From NCBI GenBank assembly GCA_029975295.1, contig JARKPK010000089.1, forward strand, positions 1 to 64,000: a DNA stretch of 64,000 nucleotides, in the 5' to 3' direction. The notes beneath the pieces are model-generated. The model ran no database searches. It saw nothing but the letters and a program-made list of their open reading frames with translations, and had not been told where the DNA came from. The position numbers were made by a program, and so were the translations under genes. Shown here one piece after another: positions 42,035-51,061 of the stretch (position 1 is its first letter; each line of letters opens with the position of its first letter). The stretch comes from Thermoguttaceae bacterium (lineage in GTDB: Bacteria; Planctomycetota; Planctomycetia; Pirellulales; Thermoguttaceae).

Positions 42035-42720
42035 CGGTGGGCAGGCAGACCGAACGGACCAATCGGGCCGATCGGTCACCAAATCGGAGTGGATTCCGCT
42101 GGAACAAACGAAAAACAGCATGGCGTTATCCCCCAGCACACTATCGCGCTACGGGTGACTCGGTCGATCGTGCCACCCGAGATTCCCCAATCGCCAGTTC
42201 TTCCCAATTCGTCGTTGTGGCCACCCGCTCTGCATGAGCGCAGCAAGATCGTCGCCATGCAAACCACGCACCGCACCTTTTCGGTTATCGGCAGCTTGGG
42301 GCAACTCTGTCCAGATCGAAAACCCCGCACAACCCTCCTTTTCCACTGCCACCTAGTCATCCCACCTTCCGCTTCATCACAGCTTCCGCAAGACCGATTG
42401 GGAACCACTTCGCGCCCTTTCGGTCCACCCAATCGCCATCGCCAAAATGAAGCCGCGTCGGAGCCCGGGATTTTCGCTCATCGGGGGGTTACAATAGACG
42501 GGCGGACGGACGACTCGAATGTGATCGGGGGTGCTGTCGGCAATTCCGTCTCGCGCGGCTTGCAAGACGTTCTGATCAAACAACTTCACGTGGACGAAGA
42601 CTTGCGAAAGCTGTCGCCAAAGTGCGCATTCAGGGAATGGCCGAGCCTGCGGTCGTCGCGGCTTCGAACGGCGCTACGCGGGTGTGCAACCATAGTTCTC
42701 GCATCAGAGGACCGCCATTT
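42035..42720. other. divergent intergenic region
   Basis: This 686-nt spacer lies between the exported hypothetical gene and the FHA gene. A TACAAT at 42490-42495 is the only near-consensus -10 on the plus strand, without a good -35. The open frames here lack coding character. Confidence 0.4.
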
Positions 42721-43515
42721 ATGGAAGTGAAATTAGTAGTCGTCGGCGGCCGAGCGAACCAACGAGAGATTTCGCTGAAACTCCCGGCCGTAATCGGCCG
42801 AAGCCGCGAAGCAAATCTGACAATCGGCCATTCTTTGGTGAGCCGCAGGCATTGTCTGCTGCACGCGGTTGACGGCCTAGTGGTTGTCCGCGATTTGAAC
42901 TCGACCAACGGCACCTTCTTTGAAAAGCGTCGGGTGATCGAGGCCCCCCTGCTTCCCGATCAGCACTTCTCCGTCGGACCATTGACGTTTCGTTTGGTGT
43001 ACGAATTCGCCGGCGACGCCTCGGCTGTCCCTCCGCCCCAATGGGCACAACAGGAATCGGCCGCGTCGCAAACAGAGGCACAACCTACCAGGGCCTCGGG
43101 CCCGTGGTCGTCGGAACCGGCAGCCCTTGACTCGCGTGTGCTGCAAGTCCCGATTTCAACCAGCGAGCCGGCGGCGACCGATGGGGCTGCCGCGGCTCCC
43201 TCGGTCGGCGAACCGATGGCGGGTGGCGCGCCCCCTGCCCCAGCCGACGAACCGCCAGCCGACGAAATCGAGTTCGAATTCGTCGATGACCCTGCGGAGA
43301 ATCCACCTCAGAGCAATCAAGGTGCCGATGAAGACGCCCCAAACTCCCCGTCGCCCGAATTGTCGCCCGTGTGGCCGCCAACTCTCCCGCGCGGTGCAAA
43401 ACCGCCCACTTCGGCCAACAACCCCGCGCTCGACGAATTGACTCTCGACGATTTCCTTGGCGACGAGGAAGAAGACAAAGAGGAAGACGAAGACAATTCT
43501 CCCAACCGGAGCTAA
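42721..43515 (+). CDS. FHA-domain protein
   Basis: The 264-residue protein starts at ATG 42721 with an FHA domain (about residues 1-95) that binds phosphothreonine. Signature residues are seen in LPAVIGRSREANLTI, SLVSRRHCLL and DLNSTNGTFF. The remainder is low-complexity Pro/Ala/Glu/Asp, ending in an acidic stretch (DEEEDKEEDEDN). It has no membrane segment. The partner kinase is not in the window. A 250-nt gap follows before the RNA promoter at 43765. Confidence 0.85.
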   Translation: MEVKLVVVGGRANQREISLKLPAVIGRSREANLTIGHSLVSRRHCLLHAVDGLVVVRDLNSTNGTFFEKRRVIEAPLLPDQHFSVGPLTFRLVYEFAGDASAVPPPQWAQQESAASQTEAQPTRASGPWSSEPAALDSRVLQVPISTSEPAATDGAAAAPSVGEPMAGGAPPAPADEPPADEIEFEFVDDPAENPPQSNQGADEDAPNSPSPELSPVWPPTLPRGAKPPTSANNPALDELTLDDFLGDEEEDKEEDEDNSPNRS

Positions 43516-43764
43516 TTGCGGTTCCAGCCCCAGCGGCGCGACACAACAGCAACCTGTTTCGCCCTGCGATCGCCGCTTCACAAATCCGCGCGGCGTGCCG
43601 CACGAGCAATAGGACGGCTCGAGCGAACGGCGGAAGCCGGCCTCCCTCAGCCTGGGCCGTTCACCGCCCAACGCACTGCAAACCGAGTGCCAATGCCGCT
43701 GCACAAATCAACTGCTGCCGGTATTCGAGACCCTCGGGCAAAAGCTGGTTTTTTCGGCCATTTC
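43516..43764. other. intergenic region after the FHA gene
   Basis: This 249-nt region has no supportable gene. It ends at the promoter of the candidate RNA. No terminator with a good stem was seen for the FHA gene. Confidence 0.4.
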
Positions 43765-43795
43765 TTGAGCGATCTTGACCGTCTCGACGTATAAT
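43765..43795 (+). promoter_or_regulatory. promoter of the candidate structured RNA
   Basis: A perfect TATAAT at 43790-43795 and TTGAGC at 43765-43770 are separated by 19 nt. Transcription would start near 43802, immediately before the closing helix of the RNA. Confidence 0.45.
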
Positions 43796-43801
43796 TCAAT
43801 G

Positions 43802-44143
43802 GGCGATCGAGCCGGGGCGGCAAGCCAACGTGCGTTACCCGTCGCAGGTTTGCAGTGTTCGGCAAGCCCAGAAAACGCAACCGATTTCGTCCTGGAGAAA
43901 TAAACCAAACTCAATCTCGTCGCGCTAAGTGCCGATGAGTAATTGCGAACAATGGAATCGCGCCTCTCGATTATGGCATTCCGACGGAGGCCCAACCCTA
44001 ACGCGTGAGCCCGGCTCGATACGGCTTGTGCAGCAGCACGCCTGAGCCTCGCTCGTCTCGCAGCGACGCATCCGGTCGCAATCCACGAGAGGCCAGATTC
44101 CAAGGCCGCTTGATTGCCTCGGGCAACAGGCGGCTTTTTCTTT
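43802..44143 (+). ncRNA. candidate structured noncoding RNA of unknown family
   Basis: The region between the promoter at 43765-43795 and the terminator at 44105-44143 has no ORF. Four nested helices form a rod: 43806-43816 with 44010-44020 (11 bp), 43832-43837 with 43999-44004, 43839-43844 with 43982-43987, and 43859-43864 with 43930-43935 (6 bp each). A second hairpin closes 44046-44056 with 44085-44093 (9 bp, 2-nt bulge) around GCGAC/GTCGC. The long stem at the transcript start resembles 6S RNA architecture. I see no tmRNA tRNA-like end, RNase P P4 core or SRP domain IV motif. The plus strand is favoured by both flanking signals. Confidence 0.5.
44105..44143 (+). terminator. intrinsic terminator of the candidate RNA
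   Basis: GCCGCTTGATTGCC pairs with GGCAACAGGCGGC (one bulge, one wobble) around a 3-nt TCG loop and is followed by TTTTTCTTT. It is well formed and on the plus strand, far from any plus-strand gene. Confidence 0.8.
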
Positions 44144-44314
44144 GCGCCGAAGGCTCTGCCGCGCGGCTTTGCAGGCTCTCACTCCGGCGTCAAGCGCGCC
44201 AACAACCGACATTGCCGGTCTGCCGCGTCGCGTATTCCAAGCTGCTGACCCAACGCGGCCCATGCCAGTTTCGCCCCGCAGGCGTCAGACGCGACGCCTG
44301 TTCAGGGCCGATGC

Positions 44315-45796
44315 CTATTCAGAAGCGTTGTCGGTCGATGATTTGCCCGGTTCAACTTTCGCGGGCGGCAAGAAACGGAATCCATTGACCAACTCCGCGT
44401 CCTCGCCATCGAGTTTGCCGGCCAGTTTCTCTTCGACATTGAAAGCGATGACCGCCTGACGCCCGATCGGATCGGTCACATGGAAGTATCTCCATTGCCG
44501 CGGCGAGTCTTCCAAACGCCCTTTCACCACCACGCGCAACACCCTCATTCGCGACGGATTGATCGCCTGCCCGGCGTCCTCAAGTTGCTCGAAGCTCTTT
44601 CCCAACGCCTTCTTCACGTCGGCTTGGAATTCACTCAACGAAGGAATCTGTTCGGCAGGGCGCTTCGGCAACAGCGAAATGCTGGCAAAGGCCACGTACT
44701 CGCCGTCGCGAACAAGCCGAAGGGTGGCCACGTCGCGATGGTAGTTCGTGGCGAACCAATTCCGGCTGTGTTCGATTTTCCAGTCCTTTGATTCCGAAAC
44801 GTGCTCAAGCCGCAGCGATTCGGCCGTGTGTTGCAACGAAAGGCCGGAAAGCTTCGTTTCGTCGAAGGCGGGCGGCGATTCGCAGGGAAGTACCCGGGTT
44901 TGCGCCCGAATGGCCAAGTCGAACTCGGCCCATACTGCGCTGATATCGCAACGCACCTTCGCTGCAACACCCATCCAATCCACGCGCTGCATTCGCCGAT
45001 CGAAACGGTATTTTCCCCGCACTTCAATGCTCCCTGCTGCATCGTTCACCCGCCCCGACGCCGAACCGGCGATCTCGAATCGGACCACAAGATCCGTAAT
45101 CTCGACAACCCGGCAGGAGATGTCGTGCTTGGTCACTTCATCCAATCCGAACAGCGCGGCGACCAGCGCCGCCTCGGGCCGCCACGACGTGCCGACAATC
45201 ACGGCCTCGGCGGGAATCAGACGGTCGAGCAGCGCGCTGTCGCCGATCTGCTTGAGCAAGTCGAACTCCTCGACAGTCAATGGTCCCTGCGGTGAAAAGA
45301 ACGTGATCGCCGGGGCCGACTCGACGACGACATAACGTCTCTGATCGCGCAGGTCCACTTTCTCTTGTTCGCCGCCGATCTTCACTTCGGCACGAGTTGA
45401 CGTGTAATGGCGGAGCGATCGACGAACGTTTTGCCCGGCGGAAGAATCATCTAGTGCTTTCTCGTAGAACTCCAAAGAACACGCCACCTCGACGGGAGTC
45501 TTCTTGTCGCTCTTCTCGGCATTCGATTTCAACGACGCAATCTCACCGCGACGGTCGCCGGCCGCCTCGATCTGAACGGTCACGTGATCAACCGACCCGG
45601 CGACACGGCTCGATTTCAGAACCAGGCCTTTGCTTCCGCTCTCGCCGGCAAAGAGCCCTAAGGGGGTTCCGCACGTCAGCAGCCACAACACGACGACACC
45701 ATGGCAGAACAGCCTTTGTCGATGCCGCACCACTTCGGCAAACCAACCGGTTGACGTTCCCTCACGTGCAACGTTCGAACGTAGTTCTTTTCGCAT
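44315..45796 (-). CDS. membrane-anchored or exported hypothetical protein
   Basis: The 493-residue protein has an N-terminal hydrophobic segment (FCHGVVVLWLLTCGTPLGLFAG) about 28 residues from the start, consistent with a signal anchor or a late signal peptide. The rest is a large extracytoplasmic region with mixed beta and helix character (FFSPQGPLTVEEFDLLKQ, GSIEVRGKYRFDRRMQRVDW). I recognise no family. Similar planctomycete proteins have been annotated only as hypothetical. The ATG at 45796 has no strong ribosome site. Confidence 0.7.
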   Translation of the reverse strand: MRKELRSNVAREGTSTGWFAEVVRHRQRLFCHGVVVLWLLTCGTPLGLFAGESGSKGLVLKSSRVAGSVDHVTVQIEAAGDRRGEIASLKSNAEKSDKKTPVEVACSLEFYEKALDDSSAGQNVRRSLRHYTSTRAEVKIGGEQEKVDLRDQRRYVVVESAPAITFFSPQGPLTVEEFDLLKQIGDSALLDRLIPAEAVIVGTSWRPEAALVAALFGLDEVTKHDISCRVVEITDLVVRFEIAGSASGRVNDAAGSIEVRGKYRFDRRMQRVDWMGVAAKVRCDISAVWAEFDLAIRAQTRVLPCESPPAFDETKLSGLSLQHTAESLRLEHVSESKDWKIEHSRNWFATNYHRDVATLRLVRDGEYVAFASISLLPKRPAEQIPSLSEFQADVKKALGKSFEQLEDAGQAINPSRMRVLRVVVKGRLEDSPRQWRYFHVTDPIGRQAVIAFNVEEKLAGKLDGEDAELVNGFRFLPPAKVEPGKSSTDNASE

Positions 45797-46473: not shown

Positions 46474-48147
46474 ATGCACCGAGAATACGTCAACCCGGCA
46501 ATTCGAGAGCTCCGCGATCAGTTGGTGCGTTTCGCTCCGCGAGATCGCCGCTGGGAGCAGGTTGCGCAAACCGAACGTCTTCTCTCGGAGATCGCCCCGG
46601 ATCGAATCTACCCGTACGAGTTTCTCTGCTACCGCATCACGAATTACCGTCCGACTGATAACCTCTCTGTCAAAATCATCGGGCGGGAGGTTTTGCACGA
46701 CCTTCGGCTTCTGGTCGAGGATCTCTCGGAGTCGGCCGGCGTGAAGGCGGAGTGTGTCGGTGAGCGCGTTCTGACCATCGAGGAACTCGCAAAGCGTCTG
46801 AACGTTTCGACGAAGACCATAGCTCGATGGCGGCGGCTGGGCTTGGTGAGCCGACGCTTCGTCATGGACGGCCGATCTCGTGTCGGTTTCTTGCAAAGCT
46901 CGGTCGAACGCTTTGTCTCCCAGAACCCCGACAAAGTGCGTCGCGGCAGCCAGTTCAGCCAGATGAGCGAGGAAGAACGCAACTCGTTGATCGAGCGGGC
47001 TCGACGGCTGGCCGCGGCCGGCGGGTATCCGGCCGAGGTCGCCCGGCGGTTGGCCGAGCAAACCGGTCGGAGCATCGAAACGGTCCGATACACACTAAAG
47101 CACTTTGACGAACAGAACCCCGACATTGCGATCTTTCCCGACAGCCGGGGCCCGCTTCCACTGGAAACGAAACGCAAGATTTTCCAGCTCTATCAGCGAG
47201 GAGAGTCCGTGGAGACTCTCGCCCGGCGCTACGGACGCGAGCGAAACAGCATCTACCGCATTATTAACGAAGTGCGGGCGATGCGGGTGCTGGAATTGCC
47301 GCTGGATTTCATCCCGAACAACTCGTTTGCTCGCGTGAAAACACCGTTCCAAGAGCAGCGAATTCTCGGTCCGATGCCCGAGGCCGACGCCGTGGTCAAA
47401 AAGCCTCGGCTTCCCTCGGGCCTGCCCCCTTACTTGGCCAGCCTGTACGAGGTGCCGCTGCTGACCCGAGCGCAAGAGATGCACCTGTTTCGCAAGATGA
47501 ACTACCTTAAGTTCAAGGCGGCCAAATTGCGGACGAAGCTTGATCCCGCATCGCCCAAGTCGTCGTTGATGGATGAAATCGAGCGTTGCTACGATGAGGC
47601 CGTCGAAACGAAGAACCAGATCATTCGCGCGAACCTTCGCTTGGTGGTCTCGATCGCGAAACGACACGTCGGTCCGATCGACAACTTCTTCGAGTTGGTT
47701 AGCGATGGGAACATGTCGTTGATGCGGGCGGTGGAGAAATTCGACTACGCGCGCGGCAACAAGTTCAGCACCTACGCCAGTTGGGCAATTATGAAAAACT
47801 TCGCCCGAACGATCCCCGACGAGCATCGCCGGCGCGACCGTTTCCGGACCACCGAGGCCGAGGTCTTCTCGACCACGCCCGACGAAAAGGCGGAACTGGG
47901 CGATCAAGAGGCCGCCCAAGCTCAGCGCGAATTTCAGATCGAATCGATCCTCAGTTGTCTCGATGACCGCGAACAGGCGATCATCATCAAGCGGTTTGGG
48001 TTGCGCCGCGGACACGAGCCGCTCACCCTGAAGGAGGTGGGCGCCGAGTTGGGCGTTACCAAGGAGCGTATCCGCCAGCTCGAGGCGAGGGCACTGACCA
48101 AGCTCCGCAAAGCCGCCGAGGAAGAAAAGATCGAGTTCCCTTCGTAA
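46474..48147 (+). CDS. sigma-70 family factor with three N-terminal helix-turn-helix modules
   Basis: The 557-residue protein starts at ATG 46474 with GGAGGGATC upstream. The C-terminal half is a group 1/2-like sigma factor: region 1.2 (YLASLYEVPLLTRAQEMHLF), region 2 (IIRANLRLVVSIAKRHVG, KFSTYASWAIMKNFAR) and region 4 (TLKEVGAELGVTKERIRQLE). Region 3 is short and region 1.1 is absent. The first ~280 residues instead hold three helix-turn-helix-like segments: MerR/excisionase-like TIEELAKRLNVSTKTIARW (near 101), EVARRLAEQTGRSIETVRY (near 190) and ETLARRYGRERNSIYRII (near 247). This fusion occurs in planctomycetes. The target promoters are unknown. Confidence 0.88.
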   Translation: MHREYVNPAIRELRDQLVRFAPRDRRWEQVAQTERLLSEIAPDRIYPYEFLCYRITNYRPTDNLSVKIIGREVLHDLRLLVEDLSESAGVKAECVGERVLTIEELAKRLNVSTKTIARWRRLGLVSRRFVMDGRSRVGFLQSSVERFVSQNPDKVRRGSQFSQMSEEERNSLIERARRLAAAGGYPAEVARRLAEQTGRSIETVRYTLKHFDEQNPDIAIFPDSRGPLPLETKRKIFQLYQRGESVETLARRYGRERNSIYRIINEVRAMRVLELPLDFIPNNSFARVKTPFQEQRILGPMPEADAVVKKPRLPSGLPPYLASLYEVPLLTRAQEMHLFRKMNYLKFKAAKLRTKLDPASPKSSLMDEIERCYDEAVETKNQIIRANLRLVVSIAKRHVGPIDNFFELVSDGNMSLMRAVEKFDYARGNKFSTYASWAIMKNFARTIPDEHRRRDRFRTTEAEVFSTTPDEKAELGDQEAAQAQREFQIESILSCLDDREQAIIIKRFGLRRGHEPLTLKEVGAELGVTKERIRQLEARALTKLRKAAEEEKIEFPS

Positions 48148-48487: not shown

Positions 48488-48560
48488 GCTAGCGTAGCTC
48501 AACCGGCAGAGCAGCTGATTTGTAATCAGCAGGTTGTGGGTTCAAGTCCCTCCGCTAGCT
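48488..48560 (+). tRNA. tRNA-Thr (anticodon TGT)
   Basis: The 73-nt cloverleaf has acceptor arms GCTAGCG/CGCTAGC, the D arm with GCTC/GAGC, an anticodon stem GCTGA/TCAGC around loop TTTGTAA, and the T-arm motif GGGTTCAAGTCCC. The discriminator is T and CCA is not encoded. First of four clustered tRNAs, in the position of E. coli thrU. Confidence 0.96.
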
Positions 48561-48759
48561 CGTAGCGAGCCGCCCCTTAATTGGCTTGGCAAGGCGGTCT
48601 GGAGCGCGGGTGGTTGTTCAGGCCGCTGCCGAGGCGGTGCGTCGAGCAAGGGCGCCGGGCGACTTCCATCGGACGCGCGTCACGGTGAATAAGGAGAGTG
48701 CAAGCAGGCAGATTCACGACGCGGCCGGCCGCTAGGGCCCAGCAGCGATCGATATACGC

Positions 48760-48841
48760 GGGCGGTTTCCCGAGCGGTCAAAGGGGTCAGACTGTAAATC
48801 TGATGGCAATGCCTTCGAAGGTTCGAATCCTTCACCGCCCA
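48760..48841 (+). tRNA. tRNA-Tyr (anticodon GTA)
   Basis: The 82-nt class II tRNA has acceptor GGGCGGT/ACCGCCC, anticodon stem TCAGA/TCTGA around loop CTGTAAA, a long variable arm (TGGCAATGCCTTC region) and T arm GAAGGTTCGAATCCTTC. The long variable arm and GTA anticodon identify tyrosine. CCA is not encoded. Confidence 0.96.
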
Positions 48842-48911
48842 CTGTCGCCGCACGTCGTTTCAACCAACGAATTCCGCGCGGTTGCCGGGGTGGACGGCCG
48901 GTGTCGAACTT

Positions 48912-48982
48912 GCGGGTGTAGCTCAACGGTAGAGCGGTAGCCTTCCAAGCTACTTACGAGGGTTCGACTCCCTTCACCCGCT
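48912..48982 (+). tRNA. tRNA-Gly (anticodon TCC)
   Basis: The 71-nt cloverleaf has acceptor GCGGGTG/CACCCGC, anticodon stem GTAGC/GCTAC around loop CTTCCAA, and T arm GAGGGTTCGACTCCCTT. The discriminator is T. It matches E. coli glyT in position and anticodon. Confidence 0.96.
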
Positions 48983-49107
48983 TCGAGGCCAGTGAAGACC
49001 GCGGCGGCGACGGCAAGACAAGCAAGCGAACTTGTTCGGGCAAGAGTTGGCGATGCAGTCGCTGGTGCGAGACGGCGAGCGGATGTCGGCAAGAGTCGCG
49101 CAATCAG

Positions 49108-49183
<76 letters not shown>

Positions 49184-49283
49184 GTGTGTGGGTCGGTCGA
49201 CGCGCGTGCATCGGCATTTGATGTTGGGAACACGTTTTTTCGTAACGACCTGATAGACAAAACGCAGGGAGAAACACGCAGCA

Positions 49284-50480
49284 ATGGCGAAGGAAGTATT
49301 TCAACGGACGAAGCCCCACGTGAACGTGGGCACCATCGGCCACATCGACCACGGCAAGACGACGCTGACCGGCGCGATCCTCGCGGTTCAAACCGCCAAG
49401 GGCTTGGCGAAGTTCAAGTCGTATGCTGATATCGCCAAGGGCGGCACGGTCCGCGACGCGACCAAGACGGTGACGATCGCCGTTGCCCACGTCGAATACG
49501 AGACCGAAAAGCGGCACTACGCCCACATCGACTGCCCGGGCCATGCGGACTTCATCAAGAACATGATCACCGGTGCGGCCCAGATGGACGGCGCAATCTT
49601 GGTGGTTTCGGCCGCCGACGGCCCGATGCCCCAAACCCGCGAACACGTGCTGCTGGCTCGCCAGGTGAACGTGCCCGCGCTGGTCGTCTTCCTGAACAAG
49701 TGCGACTTGGTTGATGATCCCGAGTTGCTCGAATTGGTCGAGCTGGAATTGCGCGAATTGCTCACCAATTACGGCTTCCCCGGCGACGAAGTGCCGATCA
49801 TTCGCGGCTCGGCCCTGCCGGCGTACAACAACCCGGCCGATCCGGAAGCCGGCAAGTGCATCCAGGAGCTGATGGACGCGATTGACAGCTACATTCCCGA
49901 GCCGGTCCGCGAACGCGACAAGCCCTTCCTGATGGCCATTGAAGACGTGTTCTCGATCGAAGGTCGCGGCACCGTCGCCACCGGCCGAATCGAGAAGGGC
50001 ATCATCAAGGTCGGCGACGAAGTGGAAATCGTCGGTTTCGTGCCCACCCGCAAAACGGTGGTGACGGGCGTGGAAATGTTCCAGAAAACGCTCGACCAGG
50101 GCGAGGCGGGCGACAACGTCGGCTGCCTGCTCCGCGGCATCAAACGCGAGGAAATCGAACGCGGTCAAGTGTTGGCGAAGCCCGGCTCGATTACGCCCCA
50201 CACCGAGTTCGAGGCCGAAGTGTACGTCCTTTCGAAGGAAGAAGGCGGGCGGCACACGCCGTTCTTTAGCGGCTATCGCCCTCAGTTCTACTTCCGCACC
50301 ACCGACGTGACCGGAACGGCCCAGTTGCTCGGCGGCGCCGAAATGTGCATGCCCGGCGATAATGTGAAATTGCGGATCGAGCTGATCGCCCCCATCGCCA
50401 TGGAGGCGAACGTCCGATTCGCCATCCGCGAAGGCGGCCGCACGGTTGGCTCGGGCGTGGTGACGAAGATTTTGAAGTAG
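49284..50480 (+). CDS. tuf: elongation factor Tu
   Basis: The 398-residue GTPase delivers aminoacyl-tRNA to the ribosome. G1 GHIDHGKTT begins at residue 19, switch [14 protein letters not shown] follows, then G4 NKCD and the domain II signature [18 protein letters not shown]. The C-terminal [18 protein letters not shown] is intact. GGGAGAAAC precedes the ATG. Length is normal. It is preceded by four tRNAs and followed by tRNA-Trp and secE. The tRNA promoter at 48433 probably drives it. Confidence 0.98.
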
Positions 50481-50806
50481 AACCCGCCTCGGGCCGGGAG
50501 AGTGTTTTCTATCGGCGTCGCCTCCTCGATTTGTCGCGGGGCGACGTCGATTGCAGTTGGCAGCGGCGAGACGGCCGAAACATGCGGCAAGAAGCGAGCG
50601 GTCCTCCGGGCCTAAAGGCGATGGCAGGCCGCTCGGCGAAAGACGCCCGTTCGTCCGCTTGCCCGCTGTCGTTGCCTAGGAGTCAACCTTCGAGACGTCA
50701 ACCAGTCGATCCGGCGGGTCGCACTGGGGGAACAAGGGATTCGGCCGCGGTGGTGGCATCAACCAGCTCCCGGCGGCACGGGTTCCTGTCGCGACGTTTC
50801 GGGCGA
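50481..50806. other. tuf to tRNA-Trp spacer
   Basis: This 326-nt spacer has no supportable gene. In many bacteria rpmG (L33) lies here; no L33-like frame was found. No terminator was seen. Confidence 0.5.
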
Positions 50807-50879
50807 AGGGGTGTAGCTCAATTGGTAGAGCACTGGTCTCCAAAACCAGCGGTTGAGAGTTCGAGTCCCTCCGCCCCTG
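50807..50879 (+). tRNA. tRNA-Trp (anticodon CCA)
   Basis: The 73-nt cloverleaf has acceptor AGGGGTG/CGCCCCT, D arm GCTC/GAGC, anticodon stem CTGGT/ACCAG around CTCCAAA, and T arm GAGAGTTCGAGTCCCTC with one A-C mismatch. The discriminator is G, as in E. coli trpT. It lies between tuf and secE. Confidence 0.96.
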
Positions 50880-51061
50880 CTCAACGATCGGCGGCCGATT
50901 GATTCAACAGCAGCGTCCATCTTGGTCGCTTCGTTGGCCAGCGGCCTGAGGGTGTAGATCTGTGTAGCGTGCCAAAGAACGCACCGTTTTCAACCATTGT
51001 GATTCGTCGCGGATTCTGTTAGGAATCCAGGCGGCGTTAATCAAACCAAGGAAGAGCTTCC

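Follow-up and report, generated by a model that had tools for sequence, protein, structure and literature searches.

In the window, the 64,000-nt stretch of Thermoguttaceae DNA analysed here, a conserved RNA core of 149 nt lies on the + strand at 43953-44101, where both covariance models described below find their match and where the genome carries its only copy. Directly 3' of the core's closing helix follows an intrinsic terminator, a GC hairpin with a U run (44105-44143, +). On the 5' side, the conserved element TGCCGAT (43930-43936, +) is a candidate proximal promoter or operator, and TATAAT at 43790-43795 (+) is a candidate distal -10 box. The segment between TATAAT and the core (43802-43952, +), possibly the leader of a longer transcript, is not conserved and carries no fold signal. 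The RNA gene is flanked upstream by a gene for an FHA-domain protein (42622-43515, +) and downstream by a convergent gene for a 493-aa protein without a Pfam match (44315-45796, -). Further along, 46474-48147 (+) encodes an unusual sigma-like regulator of 557 aa, in which MerR-like and other helix-turn-helix domains precede sigma-70 regions 2 and 4 towards the C-terminus, and five tRNA genes (Thr, Tyr, Gly, Thr, Trp) lie within 2.4 kb at 48488-50880 (+).

Comparative analysis of 93 diverse homologues arranges the core as helices P1, P3, P4 and P5 round a three-way junction. P1, which closes the junction by pairing 43955-43969 with 44086-44100 (both +), shows compensatory changes in every pair. 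Covariation likewise supports P3, formed by 44003-44017 and 44044-44061 (both +) with a UCU bulge at 44056-44058, while in the apical hairpin P4 (44023-44042, +; 44023-44031 with 44036-44042) 97.5% of cells are paired. The covarying P5 hairpin, GCGAC-GCAUCCG-GUCGC at 44063-44079 (+), presents a C-rich loop, L5 (44068-44074), and occurs across homologues in the compensatory forms GCGAC/GUCGC, GCGGC/GCCGC and GCAGU/ACUGC. An alternative helix, P2, in which CGAC/GUCG would join the junction to the 3' arm of P5, was ruled out, since covariation backs the P5 hairpin and not P2. The junction strand AUUCCGACGGAGGCCCAACC (43978-43997, +) is near-invariant both in the alignment of 20 homologues (A1) and in that of 93 (A4).

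Over the 40 pairs counted in A4, standard pairs make up 91.5% of cells, and changes on both sides are seen in 37. The alignment reaches a covariation score of 0.566. Shuffles, which ignore relatedness, give 0.208 (sd 0.006), and offsetting one strand of the helices by 1-3 columns, a control that does correct for relatedness, lowers the score to 0.106 or less. A4 was fitted to the structure of the covariance model; the structure itself is independent of this fit, because the minimum-energy fold of the single sequence already contains all the covarying helices, P1, P3, P4 and P5 (43946-44104 alone, z -3.81). The + strand is supported by the inner helices, in which G-U cells outnumber C-A cells by 120 to 33, and the region 43796-44143 folds better than dinucleotide shuffles on the + strand (z -3.76; - strand, z -1.12). 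Judged from this pattern of sequence change, the locus is almost certainly a structured RNA gene, and the gene, the strand and the 3' end at the terminator that the initial annotation had assigned from the sequence are all borne out. Covariation, which it had named as a check, is strong among the 93 homologues, but in a fold other than the one it had put forward.

That fold was a 342-nt RNA spanning 43802-44143 and closed by a perfect 11-bp helix between 43806-43816 and 44010-44020, a pairing considered improbable by chance. The complementarity is real and perfect; its role as a closing stem is not sustained. The 3' arm at 44010-44020 overlaps the 5' strand of covarying P3 (44003-44017), and the 11-bp helix cannot belong to the conserved fold because P3 needs the same bases. 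It would also need the leader, which is not conserved: 43802-43945 folds at z -0.59 and falls outside the conserved block, so that the conserved part is confined to 43953-44101 plus the terminator rather than extending over 342 nt. Nor is a pairing of this length more than mildly unusual: of 2000 dinucleotide-shuffled versions of the region, 62 (3%) contain one as long, and perfect 11-bp inverted repeats turn up in 15 (4.5%) of 335 segments of equal size taken from the window. We therefore give the 342-nt fold next to no credence.

Beyond the helices, the core offers a further long-range contact. CGGA at 43985-43988 in the junction strand is complementary to UCCG at 44071-44074 in L5, and across homologues this C-rich loop has a possible pairing partner in the G-rich strand that links P1 to P3, as GAG-GGA/UCC-A-CUC in one family and GGAGGA/UCCUCC in another. 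The loop itself varies by family (GCAUCCG, UCCACC, UCCACUC, UCUGCC, UCCGUUUU). When partners were swapped between homologues, the duplexes with the own partner were more stable (-4.89 versus -4.51 kcal/mol, sd 0.10), a difference reached in 0 of 2000 permutations, uncorrected for kinship. Because the swap test ignores relatedness, we grade the pseudoknot between L5 and the G-rich junction strand as probable rather than shown. In many homologues, GGAGG in the segment linking P1 and P3 (J1/3, 43980-43991) has two potential partners, a local UCC (UUCCGNCGGAGG) and L5; the local option is missing from one large family. Two mutually exclusive pairings of GGAGG hint at a conformational switch.

The signals surrounding the core would suit an independent transcription unit. 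Of 115 homologues, 102 have a comparable terminator 3' of the core; control segments yielded 5. TATAAT, which the initial annotation had located correctly at 43790-43795, is consistent with a genuine distal promoter in the own family, because a TANAAT box recurs there 90-170 nt upstream more often than expected (13 of 26 loci, 2.2 expected); in the other families the box sits 0-45 nt upstream (30 of 89 loci, 6.5 expected). A simple scan found no sigma-70-type -35/-10 pair, the support for the -10 box coming from the comparison of relatives alone. TGCCGAT stands within 300 nt upstream, in the orientation of the RNA, at 70 of 115 homologous loci, compared with 2.0 in shuffles and 6 for its reverse complement. 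Its distance to the RNA ranges from -5 to -282, TGCAA often stands about 16 nt before it, and its order relative to TATAAT is reversed between the own family and the others. At Thermogutta-type loci (L030), TGCCGAT and the -10 box are fused as GCCGATATAAT. In the own family, TGCCGAT at about -28 may mark a proximal start and thus a transcript of about 200 nt. Tandem promoters, one at the TATAAT box and one at the TGCCGAT box, are well supported by these recurrences, if less certain than the core and its terminator. A regulon defined by the bipartite TTCG-TGCAA-N15-18-TGCCGAT did not emerge from 60 relatives, in which 5 of the 10 exact matches were the RNA's own locus.

How widely is this RNA distributed? 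A DNA search of 60 relatives gave strong matches that fell nearly all within 43946-44150. The covariance model R1, built from the 20 homologues of A1 with the uncertain central region left unpaired, matched 35 of 392 genomes of the phylum, with one copy each and, apart from one weak match, all in the own class. A second model, R2, was built from 51 sequences and included the P5 hairpin; of the 398 genomes of the class that are at least 90% complete, it detected the RNA in 248, always as exactly one copy. The carriers comprise 144 of the 156 genomes of the own order (~92%); the other 104 come from a single additional family (f21), which probably belongs to Planctomycetales. We take the own order to be Pirellulales because the named loci confirmed by the model include Thermogutta as well as further Thermoguttaceae and Pirellulales. 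In the genomes listed for families f22, f118, f119 and f120, R2 detected no copy. When 35 genomes, most of them unmatched earlier, were searched with greater sensitivity, scores in these four families were no better than chance, and several carriers were added from the own order. About 8% of the own-order genomes have no detectable copy, among them one that is a single contig (G041), so the RNA is not strictly essential everywhere. A scan of genome contigs for a 16-base pattern returned mostly chance matches, the covariance model upholding 10 of the 40 loci tested, mainly in Thermoguttaceae/Pirellulales. A weak 26-bit match, L063 from another family, was dropped as probably a coding region.

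None of the known RNA classes that we compared accounts for the locus. Searched against Rfam at gathering and at permissive thresholds, neither the window nor 15 homologous loci gave a family match, in keeping with the unknown class that had been suspected from the sequence; weak matches to ceN40 (E 2.8) and BcKCsr2 (E 1.7) are chance. The housekeeping RNAs of this genome are encoded elsewhere: 6S RNA on G000:C115, tmRNA on G000:C145, RNase P RNA on G000:C181 and SRP RNA on G000:C141. Within the window there is no match to tmRNA (RF00023), and the locus is not matched by RNase P RNA (RF00010) or by the bacterial small SRP RNA (RF00169), likewise a small stand-alone structured RNA but one with a different fold. 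Bacterial Y RNA, the protein-bound partner of Ro60, also has a closing stem and a branched fold; no Y RNA match was obtained in Rfam, and we rejected this identity because no TROVE-domain protein was found in the own genome or in several other carriers. TROVE matches in other genomes are mostly partial, and their distribution does not follow the RNA.

Among candidate RNAs from planctomycetes, the Rhodopirellula-1 motif, which has no Rfam accession, was listed by Weinberg et al. 2010 (PMC2864571) as an ambiguous RNA with a probable cis-regulatory role, found in both Proteobacteria and Planctomycetes. The present RNA, in contrast, is stand-alone, single-copy and not seen outside Planctomycetia, a distinction that is drawn from the description of Rhodopirellula-1 only. 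We found no description of the present RNA in the open-access literature searched. By these comparisons it is a new RNA family, with the novelty at the level of family and fold. That it is a stand-alone structured non-coding RNA of unknown class is strongly supported by the sequence evidence, because the structure covaries, the gene has its own terminator and no coding capacity, and its position is independent of its neighbours.

As for what this RNA does, the best explanation overall, to which we assign a probability of roughly 0.6, is that the stand-alone gene yields a structured RNA working in trans. Action in trans, taken by itself, is very probable from the gene's layout. The product would be a short transcript of roughly 200 nt (~43946-44143), and a start near 43802 may give a longer transcript in the own family. 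Like 6S, SRP or tmRNA, such an RNA could have a protein or a general machine as its binding partner. We put the chances of a mechanism of this kind at about even, and favour it over antisense pairing because the compact fold appears pseudoknotted, near-invariant unpaired bases are scattered over it, and a single copy has been broadly and vertically retained. More tentatively, and with the odds against so specific a version, it could be a lineage-specific core ribonucleoprotein RNA of Planctomycetia that binds RNA polymerase, the ribosome or a planctomycete-specific protein and controls this partner via the pseudoknot between L5 and the junction. Any action would be independent of Hfq, because no Hfq (PF17209) was found in 24 Planctomycetia genomes, with control genomes behaving as expected.

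The most serious competitor is an Hfq-independent base-pairing sRNA, in which L5 (UCCACC and its variants) or a CCAACC junction would open and pair with G-rich ribosome-binding sites of mRNAs. A C-rich hairpin loop adjoining a terminator is a typical layout for an sRNA seed, the gene has promoter-like boxes as well as that terminator, and the pseudoknot holding L5 is weak enough, at about -5 kcal/mol, to open. However, the family differences in L5 track its partner within the molecule and not a fixed target, conservation covers the entire fold rather than a single seed, and none of the 24 genomes has Hfq. We consider this possible but doubtful, at perhaps one chance in a few. The pseudoknot and the near-invariant bases at several single-stranded positions would also suit a trans-acting ribozyme or a free-standing ligand-binding RNA, although neither a cleavage site nor a substrate or ligand has any evidence behind it; to our knowledge, free-standing catalytic RNAs besides RNase P are rare in bacteria, and we regard this reading as improbable. 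Control of the next gene in cis is less likely by far. A three-way junction, a pseudoknot and an adjoining terminator do resemble transcriptional riboswitches, in which P1 and the terminator could act as riboswitch or attenuator, but the next gene here (44315-45796) lies on the opposite strand, as it does in 55 of 109 homologues, against 54 in which it is co-oriented. No neighbouring gene recurs across the families at the homologous loci compared, each genome has one copy, and the terminator is a separate hairpin for which no competing antiterminator was seen. Because the orientation of the downstream gene is even and no neighbours recur, the RNA is neither a riboswitch nor part of an mRNA, and we assign such a role a negligible probability.

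A regulator like 6S RNA had been suggested for this locus at the outset, and a diverged 6S RNA, as second copy or variant, has some general likeness in its favour. Like the RNA described here, 6S RNA (RF00013), about 150-200 nt long, is stand-alone, has a terminator, is usually present once and is broadly retained, and 6S models are patchy in planctomycetes. The suggestion nonetheless fails on several counts: the own genome has a canonical 6S gene elsewhere, above the Rfam cut-off, several other carriers have 6S RNA too, and 6S RNA forms a rod with a central bubble, whereas the present RNA is branched round a three-way junction with a probable pseudoknot. Searched up to E 10, 43750-44160 is not matched by the 6S model, and we think this identity very unlikely.

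For the structured, trans-acting RNA that we favour, a central role in the cell is likely, because of the level of covariation, the single copy in ~92% of the order's genomes and its occurrence in a second large lineage. Planctomycetes are studied for their unusual cell biology, and no transcript-based search for RNA classes of their own turned up in the open literature. With the covariance model, coordinates and pseudoknot prediction reported here, the question can now be tested in culturable carriers. A minor observation concerns 6S RNA itself: RF00013 is patchy in Planctomycetia, with several complete genomes giving no match while several carriers of the new RNA have both, and planctomycete 6S RNA may need a better model.
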